Source: Argopecten irradians (Eukaryota; Mollusca; Bivalvia; Pectinida; Pectinidae). Taken from it: 64,000 bases of DNA. Each line of letters begins with the position of its first letter. Position 1 is the stretch's first letter. The notes beneath the pieces are model-generated. The model was not told where the DNA came from. It made no database searches and saw only the letters and a program-made list of their open reading frames with translations. This document shows positions 16,052 through 62,255 of this stretch, in pieces. The stretch is from positions 35,209,604 through 35,273,603 of the forward strand of contig NC_091138.1 in the NCBI RefSeq assembly GCF_041381155.1, written 5' to 3'. The translations under genes were made by a program, and so were the position numbers.

Positions 16052-17059
16052 AGGTCATCTGACCCAAGGATGACGTATTGTCATCATGCACCGTCCGTCG
16101 TCGTGCGCCGTCCGCCGTGTGTAAACTTTTTATTCAAACGACTTCTTCTCAATAACCGGAAGGCCCAGGGTACTCATATTTGGCCTGTAGGTTGCTGGGA
16201 TGGAGGGCTACCAAGTTTGTTCAAATGAATGACCTTGATCTTCATTCAAGGTCACAGGGGTCAAAAAGGCTAAAATCTTTAAACAACTTCTTCTCAAGAA
16301 CCAGAAGGCCCAGGGTACTGATATTTGCCCTGTGGGATGAAGGGCTACCAAGTTTGTTCAAATAAATGACCTTGACCTTCATTCAAGGTCACAGAGGTCA
16401 AATAGGCTAAAATCTTTAAACGACTTCTTCTCAAGAACCAGAAGTCCCAGGGTACTGATATTGGGCCTGTGACATGCATGGATGAAGGGCTACCAAGATT
16501 GTTCAAATGAATGACCTTAACCTTCATTCAAGGTCACGGGGGTCAAAAAGGCTAAAATATTTAAACGACTTCTTCTCAAGAACCAGAAGGCCAAGGGTAC
16601 TGATGTTTGGCCGGTAGGATGCTGGGATGAAGGGCTACCAAGTTTGTTCAAATAAATGACCTTGACCTTCATTCAAGGTCACAGGGGTCAAATAGGCTAA
16701 AATCATTTAAACAAATTCTTGTGAATAACTAAGAGGCCTAGAGACCTGATATTAGGCCTGTGGCATGCTGGGATAAAGGGCTACCAAGTTTGTTCAAATG
16801 AATGACCTTGATCTTCATTCAAGGTCACAGGGGTCAAATAGGCTAAAATCTTTAAATGACTTCTTCTTAAGAACCAGAAGGCCCAGGGTACTGATATTGG
16901 GCATGTAGCATGCTGGGATGAAGGGCTACCAAGTTTGTTCAAATAAATGACCTTGACCTTCATTTAAGGTCACAGGGGTCAAATAGGCTAAAATCTTTAA
17001 ACGACTATGTTGTATTGTACTAATAGTCAGATGACCGTTAAGGCCCATGGGCCTCTTGT
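16052..17059 (+). mobile_element. Hairpin-ended tandem-repeat element E1
   Basis: End A follows a T-tract: AGGTCATCTGACCCAAGG with a CGTCCG-rich stretch (16101-16122). End B is TCAGATGACC, GTTAA, the hairpin GGCCCATGGGCC and TCTTGT (17027-17059). The core is six degenerate tandem units of 145 bp (GGGCTACCAAGTTTGTTC at 16205, 16342, 16487, 16632, 16778, 16923), each with a TGACCTTGA...TCAAGGTCA palindrome. The 10-bp arm GGTCATCTGA is shared, inverted, by the two ends. No coding capacity. Confidence 0.85.
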
Positions 17060-19093
17060 TATTCTAATAGGTCTGTCGGAAAATTCTATTGCACTGTTGT
17101 GTACAAGATGACAAAGACGTTTACATTTGAGAATCCAGTCGTCGCCCAGTTTGGTACCTTAACTCTGTTACAAGGTCCGATGGCACACCTACAGTCGTGA
17201 TGACGAGGTTCTCAGGGATTGTGCCACTGGAAGACCTGCTGAACTAGAAAATGAACTTACTGATTACTCTGCATGCCATCCGATTTTGAACTGCCTAGAT
17301 TTGTTCCTGATAGACACCGATCGACAGTTACTGGGCCAGTATAGGTAAAATAAGTAACGGCATCATAGGTGACAAGTGAGTTATGCTCTGTCTGTCGGTA
17401 GCGATGCTGACAATCTCTTGCAATTAATCTCTGTTGAATTATGTTATAGTTTATCTGATTTACCCAAGTCAAACAATATTGCATAGTATATTTGGATTTG
17501 TAAAAATTATAACTGATTTGTCGATTTATTACAATTTATATTCTTGTGCCTTTGTCAATCAATGAGATTAATTTATTAACTTACATTATATATAATAATA
17601 ATAATAAAAACACTGTAAGAGATATCTTCATAATTCCAATTGTTCTGAAATCAGAACGATTTTTTAAATGTTCCAGCAAAATTAATGTAGTGTAACTTAC
17701 TTACTTTTGGAAAAAAATCGTCTTTTTGTGTCCCTATTTCCCTGATGCAAATTTTCGCTTGGAAGGTCTTTATCACTACGGTGTTTTATTCACGTTGAAA
17801 ACAAGCGTTCTGACGCCCTTCGCGGGTTAAGTTCATTTTACGAATTTAAAATCAACAAAAGGAGCGGAATAATATCAAGAAACAATGCATTTTCAGCTCT
17901 AATATCGACATCAGTCGGGCACAAAACCCGATATCGAATAAGAATTCCCTGTAATAGTTGCAATAGGAAAATAATACGAAGTCAGTAAATAAATGTTTAA
18001 TTTCGTTCGTTTGATTCAATTTCTAAATTTGTTGACTTGATCCCCAACATTCCAGTGACGTCACTTTTAGTAGGAGTGAATGAAACGGCAGTCAGTCCCG
18101 CCAAACAGTGACGTCACAATCACCGGAATGACGTCGCTTACATAATTCCCACGGTAGTAAAAAGGAGTACACACTCATTCGGTTTAGTGAATGCAACTTT
18201 TCTTGATCATCAAAGAAGCGTTTTCGCTTTGAGCGAAATCGTGTAAATAACAGACAATTTGCTTTCGTTTTGAATACCATCTTCTGTATGTATAATGAAA
18301 AAAGTTACAGGATAAACAGAATACAAGGTCACAATCTTACAATACAAGTTTTATTTTGGTGTCGACAGGGAAAACAAAGATAATTCTGCAAAACCTCATC
18401 TAATCTCATCGCAAAAACGATAGCAGCATCGATATTAATTATAGCAAAATAAAAATGTCCAACGTTGGAAATATTGCAAGTACATTCATTATTTACATAA
18501 ACCAGTAATTAGAATTATCATTTATTTCATCTAGACTACATAATTTGCGAATCCCATACACTGCCTGCAAGGAGACGATCTTGGCCTATCGCTACCCACG
18601 ATGCTCTCGATCGTGGTCTTATATTATGTAACTTTTCATGGGATGTTAAATCTAGATATATCTGTTTTCGACAGTTAAATTTCTATGAACATGTGTAAAA
18701 CAAGCAGTCTCAACTGCTATTCCGAGGCCGTAAAATGCAATATTGATCACATCAGCCAAAACACAGGGGCACGCAAATTATGACAGAAACGTTTACTAGT
18801 AAATTGATACGTATGTCATTTAAAAGTATTGGAGACCTTTTGATATGCACGTGTATGTATCATGACGTTTCAAGTGGCTGCCCGTATTATTTTTTGTGAA
18901 AAATGAATTATATATATTATATATATGTTATAAAATTCGGTTAGCTTTTTTATTGTCATTATTAAAATACACTGTATGTGATATTTAAACGAAAACACAT
19001 ATTTTACCTAAGAAGCCAATTATATATATAATGTAAGTATCGGTTAGCTTGTAAAAGTTATAATATCTATAATGTAATGAATATATTTGTAAA
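17060..19093. other. Unassigned region with TGACGTCA inverted repeat
   Basis: Mostly unremarkable AT-rich DNA. Around 18049-18135 two GTGACGTCAC palindromes lie in an inverted arrangement bordered by CATTCC and GGAATG. These could be CREB/ATF-type promoter sites or the ends of a short MITE. No gene start is recognisable next to them. A short palindrome GTTCTGA/TCAGAAC lies near 17643. Confidence 0.4.
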
Positions 19094-19225
19094 TTTGTTT
19101 GTTTGATTAATTAACGTCATATTAACAGCTATGGTCATGCAAGGACGGCCTCCCATGTATGCGCTGTGTTGCGTGTATGTTGTGAGAGGTGCGTGTTTTG
19201 GGAGACTGTGGTATATTCATGTTGT
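19094..19225 (-). repeat. SINE-A, 5'-truncated copy
   Basis: Contains the (CAAA)n tail and about 115 bp of 3' sequence up to the TTCATGTTGT block. The truncation point is typical of incomplete target-primed reverse transcription. Confidence 0.85.
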
Positions 19226-19950
19226 CATAAAAATTGTAAGCCTAACTCAAAGTGTGAAAGAACATGATATATGGTTCGCAAACTCTAGACAGACAATCAG
19301 GCGTTCGTGAACAATTTTACCCTATGTTGTGTCATATTCTGTAAGATCAACACTGATGATACATGCTGTCCGTTACAACCCACCCACGAGGTCCTGAAGA
19401 TGGCTAAAGCTGCAACAAGGAACTACAATGTGTCACTTATCTTCAGATTTCCAAGTGGAATTGAAATAATTATTGCTTGTATGTGTGATATTTACATATG
19501 AAGCAATCTGTGATGTGACTTGATCATGAACAGTTGTTTTGTATTGATTTAGTTGAGCCAATTTTGGAATTTAACAAATTTTTGATATGTGAATATCTGG
19601 AGTCATTTGAAGCTAGCCAGCTGTATTTATTTAAAAAAAATATATATATTTATAATTGAGTTGTTTGTCTATTATATGAAATAGTTGCTATTGTTTTTAT
19701 CACGTGTATGTCAACATATAGAAAAAAAGGTTATGACAGTACATTCCACAAGAAAAAGTCACCTAATCATTGAAATATGTGATAATTCAATGAACTGAAT
19801 CCAGTTTCTGAGTGTACCTCGTTGAGATATGTATCTGTTTGAATATATAACAAAATCACACTTTAAAACCATGATATTACATAGCCGTCTATACTGTGCG
19901 CGAAATACAGAAAAAAGTATAATACAAGAAAATATCAATTTTCATCTATG
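19226..19950. other. No recognisable feature
   Basis: AT-rich stretch; no coding or repeat structure I can support. Confidence 0.55.
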
Positions 19951-20833
19951 CGACGTTAATAAATCAAACAAACAAACAATTTGTGAATCATTTTAATGTT
20001 CCGTGGGCATTTGTTTTGTTTGATTAATTAACGTCCTATTAACAGCTATGGTCATGTAAGGATGCCCTGCAGGTAGGGCGTTAGAATTGTACCTGCTGCC
20101 CTTACTGCATGATCGTAAAAGGCGACTAAATTTAGGATATTTTCTCTTCTTCCTAAGTGACTTTATCCTTCCTACCGCCTCACTTTTGGCCTTGAGTTGA
20201 GCGTTTGCCCCTGTGAGGAAGGCTCTGGGTTCTGTCCCCTGGCCAAGACACACCAAAGTCTATAACAGTGGTAGTTTCTGCTCCAACTAAGCGCTCAGCA
20301 TACATAGACTGGGACGACTGGTTCGGCCGTTGTCATTTTTTTGTTTGTTTGATTTATTAACGTCATATTAACAGCTATGGTCATGTAAGGACGGCCTCCC
20401 ATGCATGCGGTGTGTTCGTATTATGTGACCGGGTGGGGTGTGTTGCTTTGTGTCTTCGGCGGCATGCTTCAGTAGTTCCACTGTACAAGAAAACACTACA
20501 TGAATATACCGCAGTCTCCCAAAACACGCACCTCTCACAACATACACGCAACACACAGCATACATGGGAGGCCGTCCTTACATGACCATAGTTGTTAATA
20601 GGACGTTAATAAATCAAACAAGTGTGTTGCTTGGTGTCTTTTGCGGCATGCTTCAGTGATAAAGCGCTATATAATGGGCAGCAGTTCCACTATACAAGAA
20701 GACACAACATGAATATACCGCAGTCTCCCAAAACACTTCGTACTTCACACACGCTACACACTGCATACATGGGAGGCCGTCCTTACATGACCCTGGCTGT
20801 TAATGGGACGTTTAAATAATCAAACAAACAAAC
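19951..20833. repeat. SINE-A mosaic cluster
   Basis: Pieces in order: plus tail (19951-19980), minus 3' end (20011-20062), plus copy from GCCCTGCAGG (20064-20336), inserted minus 3' end (20337-20417), resumption of the plus copy (20418-20621), and a further plus 3' part (20622-20833) of a CCTGGCTG subvariant. At least three insertion events are needed. Confidence 0.85.
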
Positions 20834-21951: not shown

Positions 21952-23589
21952 TTAAAGTTCTATCACGTGTACAGACCCATCCTGACACCCGATCCATATA
22001 TGTCCACACCAATCTATACCTACGGCGGTAGGACCTGTGATTCCATGTCTTTGGTGCAGGAGACAGATAGCTTTCGTACTGTCTCCAGGTACAACATATA
22101 CCTGGTTATTGACATAATCAGGAACAAACACCCTGTCGTACGTATCATGGCATGTTTGACAAAGTAACATCTCACTGACCCTCCTACCATCGCCCAGTTC
22201 CCCGCCCCATGCATACACAGTTTTGTCAAATTGATCCTTTAATTCCAGATCATATTGAGAATTAGCCCTCTTTACAACCACAGCGACGTGTCCTGTGCTC
22301 AAACAGACGATACTCTCTCCGTTTCCTCCACAAGAAAGTTTTCGGACTTCGTGTCCGAATTTGTTCAGTATCAGTATTGTTGGTGAATTAGTACTAACAA
22401 CCACCTCGTCATTGTTACCCACACTAATACACCCAGCTTGTAACGGACTGATATCAGCAAACTTAGTGAACCGTCTGTCCTCGGACAGACTAGTTATAAG
22501 TGATGATCCACCATAACGTGTCATCAGGAGTACCCCTCTAGTGGTCAAATCCAGAGACCGCGGTAAGAATTCCAGCTTCACACTCTCTTTGACTGTTCCG
22601 TCTTTGTTAACTAGAATCAAATCCTTACTGCCAAATACGGATATCCACACGTGGTTGCTGTCTGCAGGACATATCCAGATGATGCCATTTTGTTGTGGAA
22701 CTTTGAAAATAGATATTTGTTTGACATGCGCACTATCAATATTCCTCTTGTCATAGCGTGCGACGTCATGGCCGACTTGAACATAGCCTAGCATTGATTT
22801 TAACTGGGACTTGTTAATCGTACCGGATACGAAACGTGGAGGACTAGATACCACATTTTCAGTAGATGTATCGAAAAGCGATTTAGTAGTTTTAAGTCTC
22901 TTTGTCAATTCAAAGAAGGATGATATCCTTGACGCTTCCTTCACTTCCTCCTCGATATCCCGAATCAGCACCTTCATCTCCTGGATCTTTTTCTCGTGAC
23001 GCCGGCAAAAGATATCGTCCGATTCTTTAAATTCTTTAAGAAGCGACGATAACTCTGTAATTAATGAGTCGGCCATAGAATCAACGTTGGCCTTTAGTTC
23101 TGATCTCCTAGATTCTACATCCTTAATAGCGCTATTGACGCTCTCCTCGAAGGGTATGCTATCTTGTTTAGGTTGAGTGTCATATTGACTAACATGTGAC
23201 CTCAATGTGTTTAATTCCTCTTGCATATATTTTTTCTGCAGAAACATTTCTTCTTCAATTGCTTTGAAAGCATGATGTTGATGTGTCTGTGCAAGACACA
23301 CTGCACACATTATGACGTCACATTGGCTACAGAACAAGTCGCATGGTTTGCCGGGGTGTATTTTACATACCATAGGGATTATGGCCTCGCCGTGAGTGTT
23401 CGCCTTCTGAATTGGTACGATGTCGTCGTTTCTTGTTTTCCTTCTGCGTTTGTGATCATATTTACATTTGCCACACAAATTCTCCTGACAATTTCTACAA
23501 TACCAATGTACAGTTTCAGAATTTGTACATATCCCACACATGTTAGACACCTTCCCTTGGCCATGACGCTTACCACGTTTACTTGCCAT
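21952..23589 (-). CDS. TRIM-like protein: B-box1, B-box2, coiled coil, beta-propeller
   Basis: The ORF is 545 codons in one exon. The ATG follows an in-frame TAG 12 bases upstream; TTTAATAG just before it could also be an acceptor for a 5' UTR exon. Residues 18-46 form a B-box1-type finger (Cys18, 21, 31, 34, 39, 42, His46). Residues 75-106 form B-box2 (Cys75, His78, Cys87, 90, 95, 98, His103, 106). A coiled coil spans about 110-240. From about 285 to the end lie repeated beta-strand blocks (VWISVFGSKDLILVNKDG, VFVPDYVNNQVYVV, GHIWIGCQDGSVHVIEL) typical of NHL-like propellers. There is no RING, so ligase activity is doubtful. Such B-box/NHL proteins are greatly expanded in bivalves, often linked to innate immunity or RNA regulation; the role here is inferred. 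It is the only intact host-type gene in the window. Confidence 0.93.
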   Translation of the reverse strand: MASKRGKRHGQGKVSNMCGICTNSETVHWYCRNCQENLCGKCKYDHKRRRKTRNDDIVPIQKANTHGEAIIPMVCKIHPGKPCDLFCSQCDVIMCAVCLAQTHQHHAFKAIEEEMFLQKKYMQEELNTLRSHVSQYDTQPKQDSIPFEESVNSAIKDVESRRSELKANVDSMADSLITELSSLLKEFKESDDIFCRRHEKKIQEMKVLIRDIEEEVKEASRISSFFELTKRLKTTKSLFDTSTENVVSSPPRFVSGTINKSQLKSMLGYVQVGHDVARYDKRNIDSAHVKQISIFKVPQQNGIIWICPADSNHVWISVFGSKDLILVNKDGTVKESVKLEFLPRSLDLTTRGVLLMTRYGGSSLITSLSEDRRFTKFADISPLQAGCISVGNNDEVVVSTNSPTILILNKFGHEVRKLSCGGNGESIVCLSTGHVAVVVKRANSQYDLELKDQFDKTVYAWGGELGDGRRVSEMLLCQTCHDTYDRVFVPDYVNNQVYVVPGDSTKAICLLHQRHGITGPTAVGIDWCGHIWIGCQDGSVHVIEL

Positions 23590-23599
23590 ACTCAGTTCC

Positions 23600-25690: not shown

Positions 25691-25904
25691 AAAGTTTGCA
25701 CGTTTAGGACAACATATTGTTTCCTATTACAAATATAGTTGTTAAGGATGTATTCTTCTGATGTTTCAGTCCCGTTGAAGTCTCGTTTCGATATAGATCA
25801 AATAAGTTACGAGATTTTCATATACAAATTATCAATATCTGTAGTATGTTTCCAGTTGCAAATTTTGTCAACAATTTACATTTCTGTTATTAGTAGAATT
25901 TTTT

Positions 25905-27171
25905 AGCTCACCTGGCCCGAAGGGCCGGTGAGCTTATGTCATGGCGCGGCGTCCGGCGTCCGTCTGTCCGTCAACATTTCCTTTAAATCGCTACTAGTCC
26001 TAGAGTTCTGCATGGAATGTAACCAAATTTGGCCACAAACATCCTTGGGGGAAGGGGAACAGAACTTGTATAAATTTTGGCTCTGACCCCCCGGGGGCAG
26101 GAGGGGTGGGGCCCAATAGGGGAAATAGAGGTAAATCCTTTAAATCACTACTAGTCATAGAGTTCTGCATGGATTGTAACCAAATTTGGCCACAAGCTTC
26201 CTTGGGGGAAGGGGAACAGAGCTTGTGTAAATTTTGGCTCTGACCCCCCCCTGGGGCAGGAGGGGTGGGGCCCAATAGGGGAAATAGAGGTAAATCCTTT
26301 AAATCGCTACTAGTCATAGAATTCTGCATGGATTGTGACCAAATTTGGCCACAAACTTCCTTGGGGGAAGGGGAACAGAACTTGTGTAAATTTTTGGCTC
26401 TGACCCCCCCTGGGGCAGGAGGGTGGGGCCCAATAGGGGAAATAGAGGTAAATCCTTAAATCACTACTTGTCATAGAGTTCTGCACGGATTGTAACCAAA
26501 TTTGGCCAGAAACATCCTTGGGGAAGGAACAGAACTTGGTAAATTTCCTGGTGGGCAAGGGGAGGGCCAATAGGTTTGAACTTGTATATTAAAGCTATGT
26601 TTTACGCCTGACGTGATGTGTGAGTGTACTGGGAGACTGCGGTATGTTCGTGTTGTGTCTTCTTGTATAGTGGAACTGTTGTCCTTTTTATAGTGCTATA
26701 TCACTGAAGCATGCCGCCGAAGACACCAAGCAACACACCCCACCCGGTCGCATTATACTGACAACGGGCAAACCAGTCGTCCCACTCCCTGTATGCTGAA
26801 CGCTAAGCAGGAGCAGAAACTTCCACTTTTATAGACTTTGGTGTGTCTCGGCCAGGGGAAAGAACCCATAGCCTTCCTCACAGGGGCGAACGCTCAACTC
26901 AAGGCCAAAAGTGAGGCGGTGCCAAGGGAGGCATTAGGAAAGATAAATTCAGTTAGGAAGAAGAGAAAAGATAAGATCCTAAATTTAGTCGCCTTTTACG
27001 ATCATGCAATAGGGGCAGCAGGTACAATTCTAACGCCCTACCTGCAGGACCAATAGGGGATTTAGAGGTAAAAATTCAAATTCCTTCAGAAAAGAAACAA
27101 TGAACCTGTATTCAGAACATTACTTGGCATTACAAACCAGGTGAGCGATACAGGCCCTCTGGGCCTCTTGT
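25905..27171 (+). mobile_element. Hairpin-ended tandem-repeat element E3
   Basis: End A (25905-25934), after TTTTTT, is a perfect stem AGCTCACCTGGCCC/GGGCCGGTGAGCT with loop GAA-type bases, then a CGTCCG-rich stretch. End B (27138-27171) is CCAGGTGAGC, GATAC, hairpin AGGCCCTCTGGGCCT, CTTGT. The core has four units of about 158 bp (CTACTAGTC at about 25990, 26148, 26309, 26463). A SINE-A copy at 26612-27048 is inserted near end B, with CCAATAGG on both sides. Confidence 0.87.
26612..27048 (-). repeat. SINE-A inside element E3
   Basis: 5' end CCTGCAGG at right; the 3' portion at left is strongly diverged. CCAATAGG occurs on both sides of the inserted region, consistent with a short target duplication. 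Confidence 0.8.
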
Positions 27172-27607: not shown

Positions 27608-29141
27608 AGCCCACCATCATCAGCATCAGATGGTGGGCTATTCAAATCGCCCTGCGTCCGTGGTCCGTCGTCCGTCCGTAAACAGATTTTATGGCTGATC
27701 GTAAAAACAAGATGGCCGCCAGGCAGCCATCTTTGATTTTGGCAGTTGAAGTTTGTTATCGATATTTCTTGAGAACTACTGAAGGGATTTTGTTCAAACT
27801 TCACATGGAGGTTACCCTAGGTCCCTAGTTGTGCCATACAGACTTTGAGGCTGATCGGAAAAACAAAATGGCCGCCAGGCCGCCATCTTGGATTTTGATA
27901 GTTAAAGTTTGTTATCACTATTTCTCAGATAGTACTGAAGGGATCTGTCTCAAATTTTATATGTAGGTTCCCCGAGGGGCCCTAGTTGTGCATATTGTGA
28001 TTTGCGACCGATCGGTCTGGCAGCCATCTTGGATTTTTATATTCAAAGTTTGTTATCGCTATTTCTCAGAAAGTATTGAATGGATCTTTCTCAAATTTCA
28101 CATGTAGGTTCCCCTAGGGCCCTAGTTGTGCATATTGTGATTTGGGACCGATTGATCAACAAGATGGCCATGGCCGCCAAGTAATCATCTTGGATTTTGA
28201 TAGTTGAAGTTTCTTACCGGTATTTCTCAAAAGGTACTGAAACGATCTGTCTCAAATTTTATATGTAGTATGTTTGAAAAAGTTAAAAAAGTAGAGAAAA
28301 GATCCATCTTTCCTTTGTCAGATATATATCATTCTTTGGTGGGCGCCAAGATCCCTCTGGGATCTCTTGTAATAGTTAAAGTTTGTTACAGCTAATTCTC
28401 AGAAAGTACTGAAGTGATTGTTCTCAAATTTCATATGTATGTTCCTCTAGGACCCTAGTTGTGCATATTGCATTTTGGGACTGATCGGTCAACAAGATGG
28501 CCGACCAGCTGCCATCTTGAATTTTGATAGTTAAAGTTTGTTACCGCAAATTCTCAGAAAGTACTGAAGGGATTGTTCTCAAATTTCATATGTAGGTTCC
28601 CCTAGGACCCTAGTAGTGCATATTGCATTTTGGGACTGATCGGTCAACAAGATGGCCGCCAGGTAGCCATCTACGATTTTGATAGTTAAAGTTTGTTATC
28701 GCTATTTCTCAGAAAGTACTGAAGGGATCTTTCTCAAATTTCATATGAAGTGTTTCCCTAGTGGACCCAAGTTGTCCATATTGCATTTTGGGACTGATCG
28801 GTCAACAAGATGGCTGCTGGTCCATCTTGGATTTTGATAGTTAAAGTTTCTTACCGCTATTTCTCAGAAAGTATTGAAGGGATTGTTCTCAAATTTCATA
28901 TGTAGGTTCCCCTAGGACCTAGTTCTGCCTATTGCATTTTGAGACCAATTGATCAACAAGATGGCCGACCACCATCTTGGGTTTTGATAGTTTAAAGTTT
29001 GAAAAGCACAGAAAAGAATTTTCAGTTTGAAAAGCAGAAAAAAGAAGTGTAAGTTTGAAAAGCAGAGAAAAGATCCCTCTTTCATTTGTCAGACATAGAT
29101 CAATCTTTGGTGGGCGCCAAGATCCCGCTGGGATCTCTTGT
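27608..29141 (+). mobile_element. Hairpin-ended element E6 with an internal second end B
   Basis: End A (27608-27639) after TTTTTT is AGCCCACCATC/GATGGTGGGCT with a CATCAGCATCA loop region, followed by CGTCCGTGGTCCGTC. End B (about 29105-29141) is CTTTGGTGGGC, GCCA, hairpin AGATCCCGCTGGGATCT, CTTGT. Core units of about 150-158 bp each hold CAAGATGGCCG...CCATCTTGG. A second end B (GGTGGGCGCCAAGATCCCT through CTCTTGT, about 28336-28371) lies in the middle and is followed directly by more core, indicating a joined or nested pair of elements. Confidence 0.85.
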
Positions 29142-29235: not shown

Positions 29236-30798
29236 ACAAGAGGCCCATGGGCCTTTACGGTCATCTGACTCATGGCACAAAACAACAAAGTCACAGTATA
29301 TAGTAGTGGTTAACAATTAATATAAATAATACAAGGAACTCCTTAGTTGAATATGTAAGTTTCTGAAATAGGTAAATGTCATTTGTTGAACAAACTTGGT
29401 TGCCCTTTATCCATATATGGTTGTAACCCATTCAAGGATTAATATAAGGAGTCAGATTTTAAAGCCAAATTTCAGCTAAGCTCCCAGTTTGGACCTCCGC
29501 CGTACTATCCCCGTGGGTCTTAGCCTGGTCCTTTATAAAATATGATTGTCCTCACCTTAAGTTCCCCCTTCTGAATCAATTAAAACCCCTATAGACCAAT
29601 TTTCATTGAGATCTGGAATGAACCTGAACACAGGAAGTGGGCCAGCAGCCATCTTGAAATACCAAAATTTTTACGACAATGTTTGCATGTTGTTCCGCAT
29701 CAATTAAAACCCCTATAGACCAATTTTCATTAAGATCAGAGACTGAAACCTTAAAACAGGAAGTGGGCCAGCGACCATCTTGGAATACAATAATCTTTAC
29801 GAAAATGTTTGCACGTTGTTCGGCGTCAATTAAAACCCCTATAGATCAATTTTCATTGAGATCAGAGAGTGAAACCTGAAAACAGGAAGTGGGCCAACTA
29901 AAATTAAGAAAATTTGCCGTTTTGGGGCCCTACCCCTCAGCCCCTAGGGGTTGGACCAGGCTCATTTATATAAAATATGATTGTCCTTTCCCAATGATGT
30001 TTCACACTAAATATAAATGAAATCCGTCCAAGGATGAAGGAGGAGTAGAATTTTAAAGCTTAAAATAAGAAAGTTTGCCCTTTTGAGGCCCAACCCCTCA
30101 GCCCCTAGGGGTCAGACCTATCTCAAATATATAAAATATGAATGTCCTTACCTAATGATGTTTCACACTAAATATGGATGAAATCCATCAAAGGATGAAG
30201 GAGGAGTAGGAATTTAAAGCTAAAGTGAGAAAATTTGCCCTTTTGGGGCCCCACCCCTCAGCCCCTAGGGGTCGGACCAGGCTCATTTATATAAAATATG
30301 ATTGTCCTTCCCCAATGATGTTTCAAACCAAATATGGATGAAATCCATCCAAGGATGAAGGAGGAGTAGGATTTTAAAGCTGAAATTAAGAAAATTTGCC
30401 CTTTTGTGGCCCCGCCACTCTGACCCTAGGGGTCGGACCAGGCTCATTTATATAAAATATGATTGTCCTTCCCTTATGAAGTTTCACACCAAATATGGAT
30501 GAAATCCATCAAAGGCTAAATGAAGGAGGAGTAGGATTTTTAAAAGCTTAAAATAAGTTTCACACAAAAATTTGCCCTTTTGGTGCCCCCCCACCCCTCA
30601 GCCCCTAGGGGTCGGACCAGGCTCATTTATATAAAATATGATTGTCATTCCCCAATTATGTTTCAAACCAAATATGGATAAAATCCATCAAAGAATGAAG
30701 GAGGAGTAGGCTTTTGTATAAATAGTCTTACGCACGGCGCACGACGAGGGACGAAACACGATGACAATAGGTCATCCTGACCTTCGGTCAGATGACCT
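29236..30798 (-). mobile_element. Hairpin-ended tandem-repeat element E2
   Basis: End B lies at left (29236-29268): ACAAGAG, GGCCCATGGGCC, TTTAC, GGTCATCTGA. End A lies at right (30769-30798): AGGTCATCCTGACC/GGTCAGATGACCT, followed by AAAAAAAA and preceded by an ACGCACGGCGCACGACG stretch. The core has two repeat types: about three units with CAGGAAGTGGGCCAGC (29590-29900) and four to five of about 161 bp with GTTTCACACTAAATATGGAT (GTTTC at 29999, 30160, 30320, 30481, 30660). No coding capacity. Confidence 0.87.
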
Positions 30799-31464: not shown

Positions 31465-32664
31465 TGATCTTTTAGTGCAAAAAGTCGTTTATATGGAAAT
31501 AACCCCTTTTGACCCCACCCTTCAGGCCCCCGGGGGGTCAGCCCCATCATTTGCAAAATTTTGAATCCAAACCCTATAAGGATATAACCATTACATTATG
31601 AGCGTAATCCCATGTTAAGTTGCAGAGAAAAAGTCATTTATATGGAAATTGACCACTTTTGACCCCGCCCCTCAGGCCCACGGGGGTCAGCCCTATCATT
31701 TGCACAATTTGGAATCCCCATCCTATAAGGATGCTACCATTGCATTATGGGTGCTATACCATGCTTAGTTGCAGAGAAGAAGTCATTTATATGGAAATAG
31801 CCAAATTGACCCCGCCCCTCAGGCCCCCGGGGGTCAGCCCTATCATTTGCACAATTTTGAATCCCCACACTATAAGGATGCTACCATTGTATTAGTGGTT
31901 AAGATGTCCCGACATATTACCACAAGCCCTCCACCTCTGGGATGCGGGTTCGAATCCCATGTGGGGCAGTTGCCAGGTACTGACCGCTGGTCGGTGGTTT
32001 TTCTCCGGGTACTCCGGCTTTCCTCCACCAACAAACCTGGCACGTCCTTACATGACCCTGGCTGTTAATAGGACGTAAAAATAAAATAAACAAACAAAGT
32101 ATTATGGGTGCTTTACCATGCTTAGTTGCAGAGAAGAAGTCATTTATATGGAAATAGCCAAATTGACCCCGCCCCTCAGGCCCCCGGGGGTCAGCCCTAT
32201 CATTTGCACAATTTTGAATCCCCGCACTATAAGGATGCTACAATTGTATTATGGGTGCTATACCATGCTTAGTTTCAGAGAAGAAGTCGTTTATATGGAA
32301 ATAGCCAAATTGGCCCCTTTTGACCCCGCCCCTCAGGCCCCCGGGGGTCAGCCCCATCATTTGCACAATTTGGAATCCCCATCCTATAAGGATGCTAACA
32401 TTGCATTATGGGTGCTATACCACGCTTAGTTGCAGAGAAGAAGTCATTTATATGGAAAAAGCCAAATTGACCCCTTTTGGCCCCGCCCCTCAGGCACCCA
32501 GGGGATCAGCCCTATCATTTTTACAATTTTCAGTTAGTAGCCCATAAGGATGCTACCAGTCAAATTTTGTTGAAATCCGACCAGCGGTTATGGAGAAGAA
32601 GTCGATTGTTGACGGACGCTGCAGTATCCCATAAGCTCACCTCGGTCCTTTGGACCAGGTGAGC
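31465..32664 (-). mobile_element. Hairpin-ended element E4, end B missing
   Basis: End A at right (32633-32664) is AGCTCACCTCGGTCC, TTT, GGACCAGGTGAGCT, nearly the same family as E3. Core units of 147-157 bp carry GCAGAGAAGAAGTCATTTAT and CCCCCGGGGGTCAGCCC (GCAGAGAA at 31622, 31771, 32128, 32432). The left end is lost. A SINE-B copy interrupts the third unit. Confidence 0.8.
31889..32104 (+). mobile_element. SINE-B (tRNA-derived) with GTATTA duplication
   Basis: The body 31895-32098 starts GTGGTTAAGATGT (A-box region, missing about 15 leading bases). It has a perfect B box GGTTCGAATCC at 31947-31957, then a conserved middle with GGTCGGTGGTTTTTCTCCGG and TACTCCGGCTTTCCTCCACC. It ends GACCCTGGCTGTTAATAGGA, CGTAAAAATA and (CAAA)n. 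GTATTA lies on both sides (31889-31894, 32099-32104). It would be transcribed by RNA polymerase III. The tail is shared with SINE-A. Confidence 0.92.
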
Positions 32665-32845
32665 TAACAATGTTGGGGAAAAAGAAGACACTAACAAAAA
32701 GATAGTGACAAAACTATCTAAAACATATTTTTTCTAGTACATTTCATACTAATTTTAGTACATTTCATACTAATTCTAATACATTTCATACAAATTCTAG
32801 TACTGTAACATTTCATATATATTCTAGTACGTTTCCAATCTAATA

Positions 32846-41871: not shown

Positions 41872-43232
41872 CTAGAGGTTGGAAGAGCATGTAGCTAGTT
41901 CATTTCCGTTGACAGAGTTGTGTAGTTTTGGAGACTTTGCTGGGACAACATTTTCACTTAGTATGTCCGAAATTTGGCGTTTCTTGTTTTCACTTAGTCT
42001 CTCACTATAAGACCTGATAGAGTTTTCCAATTTGTGCCCGCTTATGCCCATGATGTGCCTTGCTTCGACTCCCTTTTGGTCAATCATCGTGATACATGTT
42101 GCCCGTATACAATGGTTGGTGTATTTAACAGAGAGACCTGCATCTTTGCTGAGCCGTGACATGAAATTGTTCAAAGTATTTTTACCTACAGCGCAATTAT
42201 CATACCACACATCCATGCACTGATCGACAGTTTTCTTCGGCCTTTGCCAGAAGTTGTCATTGTTAGGATTTAATTTGCGTAGGTATTTCTCAATAGTAGC
42301 CACAGGACAATTAGGATTCCCTGAAACATATGAAGAGGAAGGAAAATGAAATGCATTATTTACTTGACTCATACAAATGACAAAAGTCAATGCTAATGAA
42401 AAATGAACACGACGTAATTGTAAACGAATTTGGTATTGTTTGTATAAGCTACACCTTTAAATACGCTTTTTCAAATTTGAAATATTAAAACTATCAATAA
42501 AATCAACGTTACAGTACCTGGTTGATCATACATGCGTCCCTCCTTGTCATTGTCTCTTAAATCGTCGCCTCGATGGTTTTTTGTTTGCCGACTGGTGACG
42601 GTGACGTATCGTCTCCCTGTAGCATCAGTATTGATGTTGAAATCATTTTTCTGAATATCTCTCAGGTTCTCACGGCCTCTATTACAGAAATAGTATAGAT
42701 ATTCAAATATTGTCCGGTTTTGTAATCCCTCCGAGGTATTTGTAGAAAAGATTTCACTTGCGTAAAGCTTCTCCATTTCTTTTGCATCAATTGGAGCTTT
42801 GTGTTTCGTATCCCCTAATCCCGCCTTTTTTAGGTTCACCAACACCGACTTGAACATTTCATTTGCTTTCTTAAATGCGTCGGCGTTTATAATATCATCA
42901 TCGCGCTTCTTTAAAAAGTACTTTTGCAATCCATACCTGATTGAAATCATGGATTTTTTAGTGTATCGGGATCCATCAACTTTTTTCAACTCCGCGTAAA
43001 ACTTTCGAAGAATACCGTTCACATGTTCGCTTGTTTCACCCTCAAGTTCACTGATCGTTCCAAGTGATTTTTCTCGGAGGTAATCCTTCAAGATGTTTAC
43101 CGCAGTTTTGATAACCTGTTGGGTATTTGCACTGTCTCTTTCGTTTACCAACTTTGTTAGTGTTTCCTCGTCAAAGGTGCATGTATAGCGGTAAAAGGAT
43201 AGTAAAGGTATAATAAAGAATGGATTATCTAC
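41872..43232 (-). CDS. Crypton-type tyrosine recombinase (DUF3504-like), two exons
   Basis: Exon 1 is open from 43232 to 42518 and ends CCAG/GTACTG. The intron is 42517-42321 (197 bp), ending TTTCAG. Exon 2 runs 42320-41872 to a TAG stop. The splice keeps frame (phase 1) and joins DQPG to NPNCPVATIE. The N-terminal SAM-like helical part contains VNILKDYLREKSLGTISE. Catalytic-domain residues: Arg in YYFCNRGRENLRDI, His and Arg in NHCIRATCITM, His in IMGISGHKLE, and Tyr in NSIRSYSERL. These give the R...HxxR...H...Y set of tyrosine recombinases. The best matches by motif are KIAA1958/Crypton proteins, which may be mobile or domesticated. The open frame has no ATG, so an upstream exon is expected. 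No lesion was seen in about 388 codons. Confidence 0.82.
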
Positions 43233-48250: not shown

Positions 48251-48830
48251 ACAAGAGGCCCAAGGGCCTTAACAGTCATCTGATTACCTTGGCAATAATC
48301 ATATAGGAAATTAATTAGATATCGTGTAATGGTAGCCATCTTCGATTTGGGATCAACCAGAGATGTAACAACACTTTGTCAGGACCATGTCAGGAACATT
48401 TCGTGCAAGTTTCAGCCAAATCGCACCGGCAGATCTTGAGAAGAAGTTCAAAATGTGTTTTCAAGATGGCGGCCATCTTGGATTTCGGATCGACCCGAAA
48501 AATAAGAACACTTTGTCGGGACCATGTCAGGATCATTTCATGCAAGCTTTAACCAAATCGCACCGGTAGAACTTGAGAAGAAGTTCAAAATGTGTTTTCA
48601 AGGTGGCGGCCATCTTGGATTTTGGATCGACCCGAAAAATAAGAACACTTTGTCGGGACCATGTCAGGATCATTTCATGCAAGCTTTAACCAAATCGCAC
48701 CGGTAGAACTTGAGAAGAATTTCAAAATGTGTTTTCAAGATGGCGGCTGTGGCGGCCATCTTGGATTTCGGATCGACCCGAAAAATTAAAACACTTTGTC
48801 CGGATCATGTAAGAATCATTTCATAACTTG
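48251..48830 (-). mobile_element. Hairpin-ended element E10, end A missing
   Basis: End B at left (48251-48283): ACAAGAG, GGCCCAAGGGCC, TTAAC, AGTCATCTGA. The core has exact 137-bp units (GGACCATGTCAGG at 48383, 48520, 48657) with GGCGGCCATCTTGGATTT. Cut off near 48830 without end A. Same subfamily as E11. Confidence 0.8.
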
Positions 48831-51656: not shown

Positions 51657-51819
51657 CTATAAAAAGGGCAACAGTTCCACTATAGAAAAGACACGACACG
51701 AATGTACCACAGTCTCCCAAAACACGCACTTCGCACACATACACGCAACACACCGCATACATGGGAGGCTGTCCTTACATGACCCTGCCTGTTAATAGGA
51801 CGTTAATTAATCAAACAAA
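51657..51819 (+). repeat. SINE-A, 5'-truncated
   Basis: Begins within AAAAAGGGCAACAGTTCC and ends in a short AATCAAACAAA tail. Confidence 0.85.
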
Positions 51820-51852: not shown

Positions 51853-52431
51853 AACAAGAGGCCCATTGGCCTTAACGGTCATCTGAGTACCTTGGCAATA
51901 ATCATATAGGAAATTAATTAGATATAGTGTCATGGTTGCCATCTTCGATTGGGGATCAACCAGAGATGTAACAACACTTTGTTGGGACCATGTCAGACTC
52001 CTTTCATGCAAGTTTCAGCCTAATCGAACCGGTAGAACTTGAGAAGAAGTTCAAAATGTGTTTTCAAGATGGCGGCTGTGGCGGCCATCTTGGATTTCGG
52101 ATCGACCCAAAAAATAACAACACTTTGTCGGGACCATGTCAGGATCATTTCATGCAAGTCTCAGCCAAATCGCACTGATAGAACTTGAGAAGAAGTTCTA
52201 AATGTGTTTTCAAGATGGCGGCTGTGGCGGCCATCTTGGATTACGGATCGACCCAAAAAATAACAACACTTTGTCGGGACCATGTCAGGATCATTTCATG
52301 TAAGTTTCAGCTCAATCCCACTGGTCAAACTTGAGAAGAAGATTGAAATGTGAAAAGTTTAAGGACGGCGCACGACGACGGACGAAGCATGATGACTATA
52401 GGTCATCCTGACCCTTCGGGTCAGATGACCT
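51853..52431 (-). mobile_element. Complete short hairpin-ended element E11
   Basis: End B (51853-51885): ACAAGAG, GGCCCATTGGCC, TTAAC, GGTCATCTGA. End A (52400-52431): AGGTCATCCTGACCC, TT, CGGGTCAGATGACCT, then AAAAAT, preceded by GACGGCGCACGACGACGG. The core has three 147-bp units (GGACCATGTCAG at 51986, 52133, 52280), 10 bp longer than E10 units through an extra GGCTGTGGC copy. The best-preserved small example in the window. Confidence 0.9.
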
Positions 52432-55677: not shown

Positions 55678-57717
55678 AGGTCACCTGAGACGAAGTCTCA
55701 AGTGACCTATTCTAATCGCCTTTTGTCCGGCGTCGTGCGTCGTCCGTCGTGCGTCGTCCTTCGTGCGTCGCATGTCCGTAAACAATTTACATTTTCGACT
55801 TCTTCTCCAAAACTGCTGAAGCAATTTCAATGAAATTCTGCACAAACCTTCTAAGGCATAAGGCCAATCAAAATTGTGAATTATATGGGAGGGGCCAAAA
55901 GGGGCAAAATTGAGTAAAATTTCAAAAATATTCTTCTCTACTCACAGATGTGGTAGAATCATATACTCTTCATAGATAGAAAGGTCTTAAGGTCCTTTAC
56001 AAAAATTGTGAATTATATGACCCTGGGGTCTCTAGTTTCCCCCTGGGGAGGAGGTTAAGTTTACTATACTTTATATTGAGAAAACACTTTTTTGCCCATT
56101 ATTTTGTCATTTGTAATAGGAAATGAGTCAAATGTTGTCAGAATTATCAGTATGAGATGGCCATTTAATCTTATTAACAAATTTTCTATGACTGACCCCC
56201 AGGGGCCTTAGGGGCGGGGTCAAAAGGGGTCAAATAGGCTAAAACTTCAAAAATCTTCTTCTGAAATCCTGGAAATGGTAGAATCAAATACTTTTCATAA
56301 ATAGAAAGGTCTTAAGGTCCTTTACAAAAATTGTGAATTATATGACCCTGGGGTCTCACGTTTCCCCCTGGGGAGGGGGTCAAGTTTACTATAGTTTATA
56401 TAGGGAAAACACATTTATGAGCATTTTTTGCTCAATTTTCATTGGAAACGAGTCAAACTTGGTTAAAATTATTAGCCTGAGATAGCATTTTAATATCATA
56501 TCCACATTGGTTCTGGCCGACCCCCTGGGGCTAAAAAAGGGTCAAATAGGCTAAAACTTCAAAAATCTTCTTCTGAAATTCTGGAAATGGTAGAAACAAA
56601 TACCTTTCATAAATAGAAAGGTCTTAAGGTCCTTTACAAAAATTGTGAATTATATGACCCTGGGGTCTCACATTTCCCCCTGGGGAGAGGGTCAAGTTTA
56701 CTATAGTTTATATAGGGAAAACACATTTATGAGCATTTTTTGCTCAATTTTTTTATTGGAAGCGAGTCAAACTTGGTTAGAATTATTAGCCTGAGATAGC
56801 ATTTTAATATCATATCCATATTGGTCCAGGCCGACCCCCTGGGGGCAGAGGGGCGGGGCCAAAAAAGGTCAAATAGGCTAAAACTTCAAAAATATTCTTT
56901 TAAAATTCTGGAAATGGTATAATCAAATACACTTTATAGATAAAAAGGTCTTAAAGTTTGTTTATAAAAATTGTAAATTATATGACCCTGGGATCTCCTG
57001 TTTCCCCTTGGGGAGGGGGTCAAGTTTACTATAGTTTATATATTAATGAGCATTTTTTGCTGAATTTTCATAGGAAATGAGTCAAACTTGGTTAGAATTA
57101 TTAGCCTGAGATAGCATTTTAATATCATATCCACATTGGTCCTGGCCGACCCCCTGGGGGTAGAGGGGCGGGGCTAAAAAGGGTCAAATAGGCTAAAACT
57201 TCAAAAATCTTCTAAAATTCTGGATATAGTAGAATCAAATAATTATAGATGGAAAGGTCTTCAGGTGTTTTATAAAAACTGTGAATTATATGACCTTAGG
57301 GTCTAACGTTACCCCCTGGGGAGGGGTCAAGTTTACTTTAGTTTATATAGGAAAAACATATTTGTGAACATTATTTGCCCAATTTTCGTAGGAAATTAGT
57401 CAAACTTGATTAGAATTATTAGCCTAAGATATAGCATTTTAACATCCATATCCGTCCTCGATGACCCCCTGGGGGACCAGAGGGGCAGGACCAAACAGGG
57501 TCAAATTGATTAAAATTTCAAAAAATACCTCTAAGTTCACAGGTTTGATGGAAGCAAATACTCTTCATAGTCTAAAAAGGTCAAATTTATAAATCACTGA
57601 CCAACTTCAAGGCCCAGCAATAGAGCATATAGTGTTTTTATGTCTTTCATTTGTTTTATTATTTGTTTCATTACATATTCTAACTCAGGTGACCGTTAAG
57701 GCCCATGGGTCTCTTGT
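55678..57717 (+). mobile_element. Large hairpin-ended element E8
   Basis: End A (55678-55708): AGGTCACCTGAGAC, GAA, GTCTCAAGTGACCT after TTTTT, then a CGTCGTGCGTCGTCCG stretch. End B (about 57685-57717): CTCAGGTGACC, GTTAA, GGCCCATGGGTC, TCTTGT. The core has about five units of 310-325 bp with AGAAAGGTCTTAAGGTCC and GACCCCCTGGGGG-type palindromes. It is 2040 bp, the longest of the set. No coding capacity. Confidence 0.88.
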
Positions 57718-57951: not shown

Positions 57952-58472
57952 AGCCCACCATCACCAGATGGTGGGCTGTTCAAATCGCCTTTCGTCCGTG
58001 GTCCGTCCGTCCGTCCGTCCGTTAACAATTCTTGTTACCGCTATTTCTCAGAAAGTACTGAAGGGATCTGTCTCAAATTTCATATGTAGGTTCCCCTAGA
58101 GCCCTAGTTTTGCATTTTGCTTTCGTAACTGATTGGTCAACAAGATGGCCGACCTGCCGCCATCTTGGATTTTGATAGTTATCGCTATTTGTCTGAAATT
58201 ACTGAAGGGATATCTCTCAAATTCCATGCAAAGGTTTCCCTTGGGCCCTAGTTGTGCAAAGTACCTTTGGGAATGATCGGTCAACAAGATGGCCAACCGG
58301 CCTCTATCTTGGATTTCACCGCTGTTTCTCAGAAAGTAATGAAGCGATCTGTCTTACATTTCGTATGTAGTATGTTTGAAAAAGTTTGAAAAGCAGGGAA
58401 AAGATCCCTCTTTCCATTGTCAGACATAGACCATTCTTTGGTGGGCGCCAAGATCCCTCTGGGATCTCTTGT
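57952..58472 (+). mobile_element. Hairpin-ended element E7 (same family as E6)
   Basis: End A: AGCCCACCATC, ACC, AGATGGTGGGCT (57952-57977), followed by four CCGT repeats. End B: CTTTGGTGGGC, GCCA, AGATCCCTCTGGGATCT, CTTGT, ending 58472. The core has about three degenerate units with CAACAAGATGGCC. Confidence 0.88.
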
Positions 58473-58565
58473 ATTTTCTTTCTCCGTGACCACCAGCCAC
58501 ACCATTATGAAATCGATTCATCATTACATACTTTTCAGGAACTTGGATGTAATGTGTTTGCACAC

Positions 58566-58706
58566 AATCATCAGATGGAGGGATATTCCAATCACATTTC
58601 GTCCATGGTCCATCTGTCTGCTAGTTCAATTAACAATTCTTGTTACCGCCATTTTTCAGACAAATCATTTTTGAAGGGCGCCAAGATCTCTTTGGGATCT
58701 CTTGGA
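58566..58706 (+). mobile_element. Decayed minimal E6/E7-type element
   Basis: ATCATCAGATGGAGGGATAT, a CGTCCATGGTCCATC stretch, one partial core unit, then GGGCGCCAAGATC and TTTGGGATCTCTTGG. It has the architecture of E7 with the core nearly gone. Confidence 0.6.
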
Positions 58707-59630
58707 TGATACAAGGAGTGACTCATATTCATATATGATCTTCAATTAATGTCGACTTCACGTGAACTAATGGAATTTTTCACTTTTAGAGTGTCGTATT
58801 GTTGGTAGTTAATTTTTACTAAGATAGGCTTTTACAGTTTCACCAGCGTTTCCGGATGTTCGGTGGTAAAGCTTGACGGACGGATTTTCCTAATCTGTGT
58901 TTGCTGGTTATATTCTTAAATTATTTTTCGAAAGTACTACCAAATTGTTTATTTAGTGCCATCTTATCCCGCTGCACTTAGTCAGAATTTACATAAGGCG
59001 GATTGGGTTCAATTTGAAAACTTATGCAACGATGAGCTCATTTATTTGAGAAGTCTTTTGAATAAAAAGTTTACACACGGTGGACGGCGCACGACGACTG
59101 ATGGAGCATGATGACTAAAGGTCATCCTGACCCTGTGGTGACATAAAAAGAGTTGGTTTGTATTGCCTTAATTGTTTGCCACTACTATATTCTTTGAGGC
59201 GTTGTATTATGCCAATAGTCGAAAAACCCATGGGCCTCTTGTAAATGTTGACTGGAGCGCCAACGTTGGACCCCTACAACAAGAACCATTACCTTGTGTT
59301 TTCATTGCGGAGAAATGTGGAATCTTTATTTTTCTATGGAGATTTTAGTATTTAAAAATTACAGAGCCCTGTAAGTAGATAGATTTCTGCTGGAAGATAA
59401 AAGCAGGTGCAGTTTTCCGGAGACGACAAGCTTCTAAAAGAAGTGACAGTAAATAATGCATTCAAATGCAAAACAGAATGAGAAGAAATTGCTGTCATTT
59501 TTAGTCAAGACGTGTTCTCTGTGGACAGTAGACGAGTAAGAGAAATGACCAAGCTTTCGCTATACTCCCATTTAAAAGATATGGAATTAAATATCAAACG
59601 GTAATCATGGAAAACAAACTTCAACAGAAA
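58707..59630. other. Mostly unassigned; decayed hairpin-element ends
   Basis: 59090-59145 is an end A with CACGACGACTGATGGAGCAT and AGGTCATCCTGACCC; its right arm is decayed. 59222-59243 is an end B scrap (CCCATGGGCCTCTTGT). No gene recognised. Confidence 0.5.
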
Positions 59631-59856: not shown

Positions 59857-59989
59857 GTAATTTCTTGTCTTGTCTTCTCTATTCTTAAAATACACAAATG
59901 GTTCTATATACTGCATTTTTTTTAATAGAACTGTCGATCCATTTCGTTCCTGTATTTTGACATATTGACATATTGACATGTACATGTAG

Positions 59990-60425: not shown

Positions 60426-60631
60426 TATTTAAGGGGAAATGCAGAGAGAAACAGGATATGAAACAGGAGGAACCGGAGATAAGGAAAGAGGAAGTTAAGC
60501 TTCAATGAGAAAAAGAAGAGAGGAAACTATGACATAAATAAGAAGAAAAAAATCTTATGTTTGAAGAGTTGGGAAAATAAAGGGGCCTAACAAAATGAAT
60601 AAAAACTATCTAATATTTTTCTATCTTGCAG

Positions 60632-61036: not shown

Positions 61037-61039
61037 AAC

Positions 61040-61750: not shown

Positions 61751-61754
61751 TTTT

Positions 61755-61861
61755 GAACATACCGCAGTCTCCCAAAACACTCACCACACACACACCGCAT
61801 ACTTGGAAGGCCGTCCTGTCATGACCCTGGCTGTTAAAAAGACGTTAATTAATTAAACAAG
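61755..61861 (+). repeat. SINE-A 3' end
   Basis: GAACATACCGCAGTCTCCC to AATTAATTAAACAA, 5'-truncated. Confidence 0.85.
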
Positions 61862-61868
61862 CCGTTTT

Positions 61869-62255
61869 AGGTCATGACGACCTATTGCGATAGTCTTGTC
61901 CGTCGTCGTGCGACGTCCGTTAACATTTCCTTGTAAACGCAAATACTTTAGTAAATATAAACCAAGCATAATGAAACTATGTAAACTTACATTGGATAGA
62001 TTCCGGACAAGAAAATCGACCTGATTCGACTCTAACTTATTTATAGAGTTATTGCCATTTGCAATAATAATTCTGAACCTTGTGAACACGATAATGTGAG
62101 TAAATATGCACCAATCTTTATGAAACTTTGTATGTAGACCTCTTAGATGTATGTTCCTATTTTGTGAACAAAAAATATTAGTTGCTAGAAAATTACAAAA
62201 CTAATTTGATTTATATCAAATATCGGGTGACCGTTAAGGCCCATGGGCCTCTTGT
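61869..62255 (+). mobile_element. Short hairpin-ended element E9
   Basis: End A: AGGTCATGACGACCT after TTTT, then CCGTCGTCGTGCGACGTCCG. End B: GGGTGACC, GTTAA, GGCCCATGGGCC, TCTTGT (to 62255). It is 387 bp with less than two core units, so tandem expansion is not required for mobility. Confidence 0.8.

Follow-up and report, generated by a model that had tools for sequence, protein, structure and literature searches.

Elements of the window and the structure of their ends

The window, that is, the whole stretch of DNA analysed (64,000 nt of the Argopecten irradians assembly GCF_041381155.1, NC_091138.1), contains eight complete elements, E1 to E8, which have the HINE (non-autonomous Helentron) architecture as published. 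All eight had been located by the preliminary description, with E5 now starting at 51854, and E4 and E5 were found to lie on the minus strand. Five partial copies or fragments (48251, 32665, 58560-58704, 59049-59145 and 59227-59242) were absent from that description and are included below.

16052..17059, plus strand: E1, HINE of arm family F1 (GGTCATCTGA) with a 145-bp tandem core
17027-17036 (arm), 17041-17054 (hairpin) and 17055-17059 (CTTGT), plus strand: end B of E1
25905..27171, plus strand: E2, HINE of arm family F2 (GCTCACCTGG) with a 157-bp core; empty sites exist
27608..29141, plus strand: E3, composite HINE of arm family F3 (GCCCACC) with two end Bs; empty sites for the outer span
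28336..28370, plus strand: extra, complete end B inside E3, made up of arm, hairpin and CTTGT, with more core directly after it
29236..30798, minus strand: E4, HINE of family F1; end A from 30798 downward, end B at 29268-29236; empty sites exist
32613..32665, minus strand: F2 end A for which no end B was found
48251..48824, minus strand: partial HINE, F1 end B and E5 core; no end A seen
51854..52431, minus strand: E5, HINE of family F1 with a 146-bp core; end A and core common to the C510 Helentron
55678..57717, plus strand: E6, HINE of arm family F4 (GGTCACCTGAG) with a 325-bp core
57952..58472, plus strand: E7, HINE of arm family F3
58560..58704, plus strand: decayed F3 copy, internally deleted and shrunken
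59049..59145, minus strand: decayed fragment of an F1 end A
59227..59242, plus strand: end-B fragment (half hairpin and CTTGT)
61869..62255, plus strand: E8, small decayed HINE with arms alike over only about 5 of 9 positions

End A of these elements comprises a T-tract, the hairpin of the arm and a box rich in GTCC/CGTC; end B comprises the arm in inverted form, another hairpin and CTTGT. In all eight elements, 4–8 T precede end A. A tandem core, formerly ascribed to all of them, is present in seven, with none listed for E8. In an intact element, a single arm sequence occurs three times: as the 5′ arm, as the complement of that arm within the end-A hairpin, and as the arm of end B. One arm of end A does recur in end B, as previously described, but in the opposite orientation to the first end-A arm. 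The two arms thus form subterminal inverted repeats, which extend over 8–11 bp in seven of the eight elements and do not match in E8. The end-A hairpin, earlier termed perfect, has one mismatch in E1 and E6 and is short in E8; the end-B palindrome was observed in all eight, with one mismatch in E5 and E6. The supposedly fixed TCTTGT is constant only as CTTGT, since the leading T closes the hairpin. E3 stands as one element in its outer span, but it is composite, with an extra end B that ends at 28370. The F4 end-A sequence is AGGTCACCTGA, and a dispersed repeat sits within the 3′ half of E2.

Arm differences between families show up at both ends, and the joint change of the arm at the two ends holds in seven elements, E8 being the exception. 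The shared architecture was confirmed, but the view that the elements have no sequence in common was too strong, since the arms vary around G(G/C)(T/C)CA(T/C)C, and F1, F4 and E8 have the same end-B hairpin and almost the same spacer.

Arm matching and insertion sites

For the null test, ends were located independently of the arm match, and 200 first-order Markov sequences were used. Eight end-A/end-B pairs with an 8/8 arm were found in the window (seven elements, E3 with both end Bs) versus none in each Markov sequence. There were 8 end-A sites against a Markov mean of 0.55 (maximum 4) and 11 end-B sites against 1.56 (maximum 5), with one end A (32719) and one end B (27707) looking like chance sites. 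The arm match summed over the eight own pairs was 74, versus a mean of 43 for all re-pairings, and the 12 re-pairings out of 40,320 that reached 74 equal the number of within-family swaps (3! × 2!).

In 30.4 Mb of contig C1 (below 30.39 Mb), 96 F1/F2 end As were examined for the nearest downstream exact end B among the matches listed, on the same strand and within 4 kb. Such an end B was present for 47 of the 96, and 46 of these 47 were of the same arm family (Fisher p 4e-12): F1 was followed by F1/F4 in 18 cases and by F2 in none, and F2 by F2 in 28 cases and by F1/F4 in one. For the other 49 end As, there was no exact end B within 4 kb among the matches listed, and the control with the strand flipped gave 1/96. 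The claim that own pairs match better than wrong pairings is thus borne out both in the window and on C1. A separate shuffle test of 11 pairs, with 8 end As and 26 end-B candidates unpaired, gave 89/99 against a mean of 68.8; 6 of 100,000 shuffles reached 89, the best being 90, and this test is weaker than that on C1 because related copies dominate. A random 200 kb was too sparse and contributed none of the 11 pairs.

The joined flanks of six elements (E1–E4, E6 and E7) were searched in the genome. Those of E2, E3 and E4 have junction-spanning matches elsewhere in the genome (35 of 36 match rows span the junction for E2, and 40 of 40 for E3 and E4), indicating that these are real insertions, and no empty site was obtained for E1, E6 and E7, so the earlier proposal of empty sites holds for three of the six. 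Joined flanks and empty sites are mostly 1–2 bases apart in length, and E2–E4 are insertions in T-runs without sizeable target duplication, judged by length. An empty site within the window was seen for none of the eight elements, and the fetched genome pieces spanned none of the eight joined flanks. The gapped junction pattern is uninformative, as it gave 8 matches versus 33 for its control.

Autonomous Helentrons with matching ends

For two arm families, the autonomous Rep-helicase copy that the preliminary description proposed to look for was found with matching sequences at both ends: F2 shares its ends with the C626 Helentron and F1 with the C510 Helentron. The 17-kb C626 Helentron has an F2 end A at 14473, the 157-bp core, a Rep-helicase frame of 2861 aa and an F2 end B that ends at 31577, and it matches E2 at 98% over the first 51 bp, 88% over 590 bp of core and 100% over the last 36 bp. 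The C510 Helentron has an F1 end A at 8505, a Rep-helicase frame of 3115 aa and an F1 end B that ends at 25813, and its end A and core resemble those of E5 at 84–90%. The C626 and C337 copies part just past CTTGT, and the alignment of the C510 and C9 copies ends within 1–2 bases of CTTGT. F4 is shared at end B only, with a third Helentron group (d), which carries the F4-arm end B at 3/3 places (the F4 end-B 27-mer next to Rep), and the first ten arm bases of E6 are those in this end B; elements of this group lie at C1:16387016, C2:9169657 and C644:26075. End A was located for two Helentrons, group d being known by end B alone. The F2 end-B 35-mer was co-located with Rep at 6/8 places, and 61 of 104 Rep matches entered these counts. 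The Helentron groups (a–f) were sorted by eye from the scores and model positions of the Rep matches and are rough.

The Helentron-type Rep motif RGSPHxH (signature ExQxRGSPHxH) was observed in all five groups fetched, and a PIF1-type helicase lies downstream of Rep at C626, C510, C337, C9, C1 and C644, the two being taken as one frame, as the open frames are equal in length at the same place. An accessory OTU protease occurs in groups a and e and was not seen in the scanned pieces of groups c and f. The 55-aa tail of the C626 frame has no Pfam match, and a swamped search for the C-terminal AP endonuclease (PF14529), with 150 of 1650 candidates scored, located none at C626 or C510. The search yielded no partner for F3 (E3 and E7) and none that is specific to the E1 or E4 core; C780 and C183 have no end B at the expected offset, and no HINE ends were present in the fetched pieces of groups a, c and d (C183). 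Judging from the matching ends, these long gene-carrying elements most likely move some of the window HINEs in trans. As the two parents share both the ends and the satellite-like core with the HINEs, the core can come from the parent and need not be captured by each HINE.

Relationships of the elements and the role of the arm

All substructures published for the Cg_HINEs of Crassostrea gigas were found in the scallop elements, in line with the earlier HINE/pearl assignment, which was right: in the available text of that study (PMC7492417), these are a 5′ subTIR, a complementary IR, a GTCC-type microsatellite, a tandem core (units of 100–500 bp were searched there), a 3′ subTIR and a 3′ palindrome, together with a T-rich target, no TSD and element-specific changes in subTIR, IR and palindrome. 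The scallop families differ in their host, and two of them are tied to autonomous Helentrons with the same core, whereas no autonomous partner is related to the oyster HINEs in the available text (PMC7492417), and Pacific oyster partners were not detected (PMC7992393). HINEs with satellite-like tandem cores are described as widespread in oysters in the portions available of PMC7492417 and PMC11136912. The Helentrons and HINEs of mite, Culex and Drosophila likewise have a Rep-helicase partner whose subTIRs and 3′ palindrome are common to the HINEs, with families set by at least 11 bp of identical subTIR, according to the sections available of PMC4067079; unlike HINE-Mo, which lacks the IR and has palindromic subTIRs, the scallop elements have an IR, and unlike the HINEs of that source, parent and derivative have the tandem core in common. 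Canonical Helitrons, as far as described there (PMC4067079), resemble the scallop elements in Rep-helicase, 3′ hairpin and lack of TSD, but the latter differ in having subTIRs, a Helentron-type Rep motif and a T-rich rather than an A/T target; a canonical Helitron was rejected, as 5′ TC and 3′ CTRR are absent and the ends are T-tract/AG and CTTGT. Exact copies of the end-B patterns were absent from the viral and prokaryote collections (records of the genome itself possibly being excluded), and for 222 papers with any of six end motifs, the 30 listed titles included none on bivalve repeats.

The elements are very probably HINEs, i.e., non-autonomous elements derived by deletion from Helentrons, which are rolling-circle transposons with a Rep-helicase; the HINEs would be moved in trans by their parents. 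The cognate Rep would recognise the arm and cut at the T-tract/AG end, the helicase would peel off one strand, the 3′ hairpin and CTTGT would act as the stop signal, and the freed strand would be joined into a T-rich target; read-through of the stop signal would account for the two end Bs of E3. A MITE or pearl identity, with movement by a cut-and-paste transposase, as assigned in older bivalve papers, is highly improbable. Subterminal inverted repeats, tandem core and microsatellite were formerly termed MITE-like (available text of PMC5874043), and the Pearl family (CvA, CvE, CvG; DTC84; MgE) is alike by partial description only, in subterminal inverted repeats, core repeats of about 160 bp and a tetranucleotide region. 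However, the mostly near-equal lengths of joined flanks and empty sites of E2–E4 disagree with cut-and-paste, and the MITE reading was rejected on the asymmetric ends and the location of the shared ends on Rep-helicase elements.

The best reading of the arm is as an end signal specific to its family, and it would be the family's address because HINEs retain the arms of one Helentron lineage. It is possible, if tentative, that this address is a swappable code: related Helentron lineages would have altered a short sequence concertedly at both ends and in the hairpin, three sites in all, and each Rep would read its own version only. The paired change had been taken to imply arm pairing or shared recognition, of which protein recognition fits at least as well as base pairing, and the two may act together. 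A clamp formed by pairing of the two ends on the displaced single strand, with protein-site identity secondary, is rather unlikely: the predicted end-A/end-B arm duplex reaches −12.4 to −15.6 kcal/mol in seven of the eight elements (−8.4 in E8), and the arms of E1 and E4 pair across the ends in joint folding, but such folding gives no cross-end pairing in the other six, and the end-A piece of E2–E7 (6/8) folds on its own at −10.6 to −14.5 kcal/mol. Moreover, the IR copy and the end-B arm are direct repeats of each other, so a single protein site present at each end suffices. Co-variation by descent only, with both ends of each family coming from one ancestor and neither selection nor recognition keeping the match, appears unlikely. 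The families are few, with four arms here, and their spacer and end-B hairpin differ too, which leaves only few independent changes, yet the three arm sites of an element mutate independently and still agree at positions 2, 3 and 6, as read by eye at both ends and the IR of the seven matching elements of four families. Helentrons with three different arms also exist, and decayed copies lose the match (E8, and the F3 copies on C626 and C510, which have changes at a single end), as expected once immobile.

The elements are of a known kind, and what is new is the scallop members plus autonomous partners for two families. Partners for the Pacific oyster HINEs were unresolved before, in the available text of PMC7492417, and the scallop genome supplies two parents. 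If the address code is true, a few bases would partition thousands of HINEs among their parents, and the co-existence in one genome of several arm families that have parents of their own makes end recognition directly testable.

Architecture of the elements and agreement of their arms

A re-reading of the window sequence revealed that the eight mobile elements of the preliminary description are all present at the coordinates it had assigned. These elements are listed below as HINEs (non-autonomous Helentrons) with their arm families (F1 to F4), followed by the other features detected in the window.

16052–17059: E1, family F1
25905–27171: E2, family F2
27608–29141: E3, family F3, with another complete end B inside it, at 28370, and more core beyond
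29236–30798, minus strand: E4, family F1
51854–52431, minus strand: E5, family F1
55678–57717: E6, family F4
57952–58472: E7, family F3
61869–62255: E8
7390–8661: 31-bp tandem repeat, 41 copies, 93%
9149–9535, plus strand: DDE_Tnp_1_7 transposase fragment, which we take to be piggyBac-type
21952–23598, minus strand: 548-aa B-box protein; matches at 57% in Argopecten irradians, 46% in Mizuhopecten and 44–45% in Pecten, with one at 99%
41872–43232, minus strand: weak matches to QRICH1, DUF3504 and phage integrase in two frames, none reaching the curated cut-offs; possibly a Crypton-like recombinase relic
51754–51819 and 61796–61860: 66-bp dispersed tail (GGCTGTTAATAGGACGTTAAT-like), flanking E5 and E8 and found at about 30 other places; possibly a SINE end

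If the host is Argopecten irradians itself, the 57% match of the B-box protein in that species would be a paralog. Decayed and partial copies of the elements were also observed in the window.

In element orientation, end A consists of four to eight T, AG, the arm and its complement (forming a hairpin) and a GTCC/CGTC-rich box, while end B carries the inverted arm, a spacer of 4–5 bases, a second hairpin and CTTGT. The tandem core claimed for all the elements was found in seven of the eight, with units of 126–325 bp, and none is listed for E8. This architecture equals that of the oyster HINEs described in PMC7492417, in agreement with the initial guess of HINE or pearl-type elements, so the design itself was already published. 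Covarying arms as such are also to be expected, since HINE families are, in PMC4067079, defined as sets with one subTIR.

The agreement of the arms was compared with chance by locating end A from the T-tract and hairpin alone and end B from the hairpin and CTTGT alone. Eight end-A/end-B pairs with all 8 of 8 arm bases equal were obtained in the window (seven elements, with E3 counted with both of its end Bs), while none of 200 first-order Markov sequences contained any such pair. Among all 40,320 re-pairings of the eight elements' ends, the observed arm score was reached 12 times, which is the number of within-family swaps. The arms thus change together at both ends in seven elements, as had been proposed, and in E8 they are mismatched.

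The ends are abundant in the assembly (845,758,899 bases, 1508 contigs), where the window occupies C5:35209604–35273603. Exact copies on both strands numbered 2626 for the F1/F4 end-B 25-mer, 744 for the F1 end-B 34-mer, 3712 for the F2 (HINE) end-B 35-mer, 1817 for the F2 end-A 35-mer and 949 for the F1 end-A 36-mer, with zero for the reversed pattern of every one of the five. Pairing was examined among the places listed on contig C1 below 30.39 Mb (35 F1 and 61 F2 end As; 124 F1/F4 and 99 F2 end Bs), each end A being joined to the nearest listed same-strand downstream end B within 4 kb; as the 25-mer cannot separate F1 from F4, the comparison made here is between F1 and F2. There were 18 F1 to F1/F4 pairs, none from F1 to F2, 28 from F2 to F2 and one from F2 to F1/F4 (C1:11593455), with 49 end As having no partner. 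The arm family therefore agrees in 46 of 47 pairs (Fisher p = 4e-12), and in the strand-flipped control a partner was found for 1 of 96 end As. Another 11 pairs were found independently in genome pieces, where 8 end As and 26 end-B candidates had no partner. In these pairs 89 of 99 arm positions matched, against a shuffled mean of 68.8, and 89 was reached by 6 of 100,000 shuffles. The covariation suspected from the window sequence alone is thus borne out by both the window re-pairings and the C1 pairs.

Two arrangements were also seen among these copies. Six same-strand F1/F4 end Bs lie at C1:5414617–5431392 with a spacing of about 3356 bp, a tandem array of an element or of its surroundings. 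In genome piece L001 (~1525), an F2 end A directly follows an F1 end B (CTTGT, then TAGCTCACCTGG), and it seems that one arm family inserts at the end of another.

Empty sites

A single query made up of the joined flanks of E1, E2, E3, E4, E6 and E7 gave 76 matches, with 40 of 1921 candidates scored. Both the E3 and E4 junctions were crossed by 40 matches at 76–80% identity (overlapping query flanks counted as gap), and the E2 junction by 35 of the 36 matches in the E2 part at 78–87%. Empty sites elsewhere in the genome were therefore obtained for three of the six elements queried. The E2-type and E3/E4-type matches are often about 300 bases apart, like the window flanks. E2 to E4 are thus insertions in a single copy of a host repeat that is dispersed in the genome. 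In most matches the E2 empty site falls 2 bases short of the length of its joined flanks, and that of E3 plus E4 measures 215 bases in many matches against 214 expected (26-base query-flank overlap removed); a target duplication of more than about 2 bases does not fit these sites. No empty-site match for E1, E6 or E7 was among the best 40 of 1921 candidates, which is not evidence against their insertion.

E3 has a single end A, two complete end Bs and empty sites for its outer span, so the unit interrupting the host repeat runs through the internal end B. The arrangement resembles read-through of a stop signal.

Autonomous Helentron partners

The Helitron_like_N domain (PF14214) is matched 104 times in this genome and not once in 14 control genomes. 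The RGSPHxH motif, part of the Helentron Rep signature in PMC4067079, was present in all five Rep groups sampled. An autonomous Rep-helicase copy between the same ends, of the kind proposed as a search target in the preliminary description, was found for F2 and F1. On contig C626, an F2 end A (14473) is followed by E2's 157-bp core, an open frame of 2861 aa carrying Rep and PIF1, 70-bp repeats and an F2 end B ending at 31577. E2 matches this copy at 98% over the first 51 bp, 88% over 590 bp of core and 100% over the last 36 bp. A related copy on C337 has the same end B, with flanking DNA that differs from just past CTTGT. The C626-type end-B 35-mer occurs at 8 places genome-wide, six of which lie 7.0–7.7 kb downstream of a same-strand Rep match (61 of the 104 matches were used, and none of those left out is near the other two places).

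For F1, contig C510 contains end A (8505), the E5 core (84–90%), a frame of 3115 aa in which OTU, DUF6570, Rep and PIF1 domains lie, and end B, whose last base is 25813. A copy on C9 (3067 aa) can be aligned to it at 82%, the alignment stopping within 1–2 bases of the common CTTGT. In a third Helentron group, known from end B only, all three genome-wide places of an F4-arm end-B 27-mer lie 6.03–6.04 kb downstream of a same-strand Rep match. End B was absent at the expected place on C780 and C183, and searches for an AP endonuclease in the partner Helentrons gave no confirmed domain.

No Helentron partner of F3 was found among the Rep groups sampled. In groups d, e and f, each of the six Helentron 5′ regions inspected (~27 kb; L034, L038, L039, L040, L052 and L053, including two pairs of related copies) has an F3-type core located upstream of its Rep frame, compared with two such clusters in a random 200 kb and two in the window. 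The core was absent from the 5-kb C183 piece (group d) and from the group a and c pieces. In two of the six regions the core is present as a whole F3 HINE, and the F3 insert of C626 has both junctions at T-runs which, on the C337 copy, are separated by 2.7 kb.

According to PMC7492417, none of the ten autonomous elements examined in the oyster C. gigas could be linked to the Cg_HINEs, and in PMC7992393 no evidence of autonomous elements is reported for that species. Titles and abstracts listed by our literature searches, whose coverage excludes most subscription journals, contained no link between a bivalve HINE and an autonomous Helentron.

Possible role of the arm

Two F1-type elements, in C510 (L051, ~973) and in a C1 sample (+20636), have a hairpin with CTTGT but no arm 130 bp ahead of the real end B, which suggests that hairpin and CTTGT without the arm are not sufficient as an end. 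The arm duplex has a predicted energy of −12.4 to −15.6 kcal/mol in seven of the eight elements; when both ends were folded together, cross-end arm pairing appeared in E1 and E4 only, and such predicted folding leaves arm recognition and arm base pairing undistinguished. According to PMC4067079, Helentrons move by rolling-circle transfer, with Rep and helicase supplied in trans. HINE and Helentron have ends and cores in common for two families, and the arm may be an address that is read by the cognate Rep.
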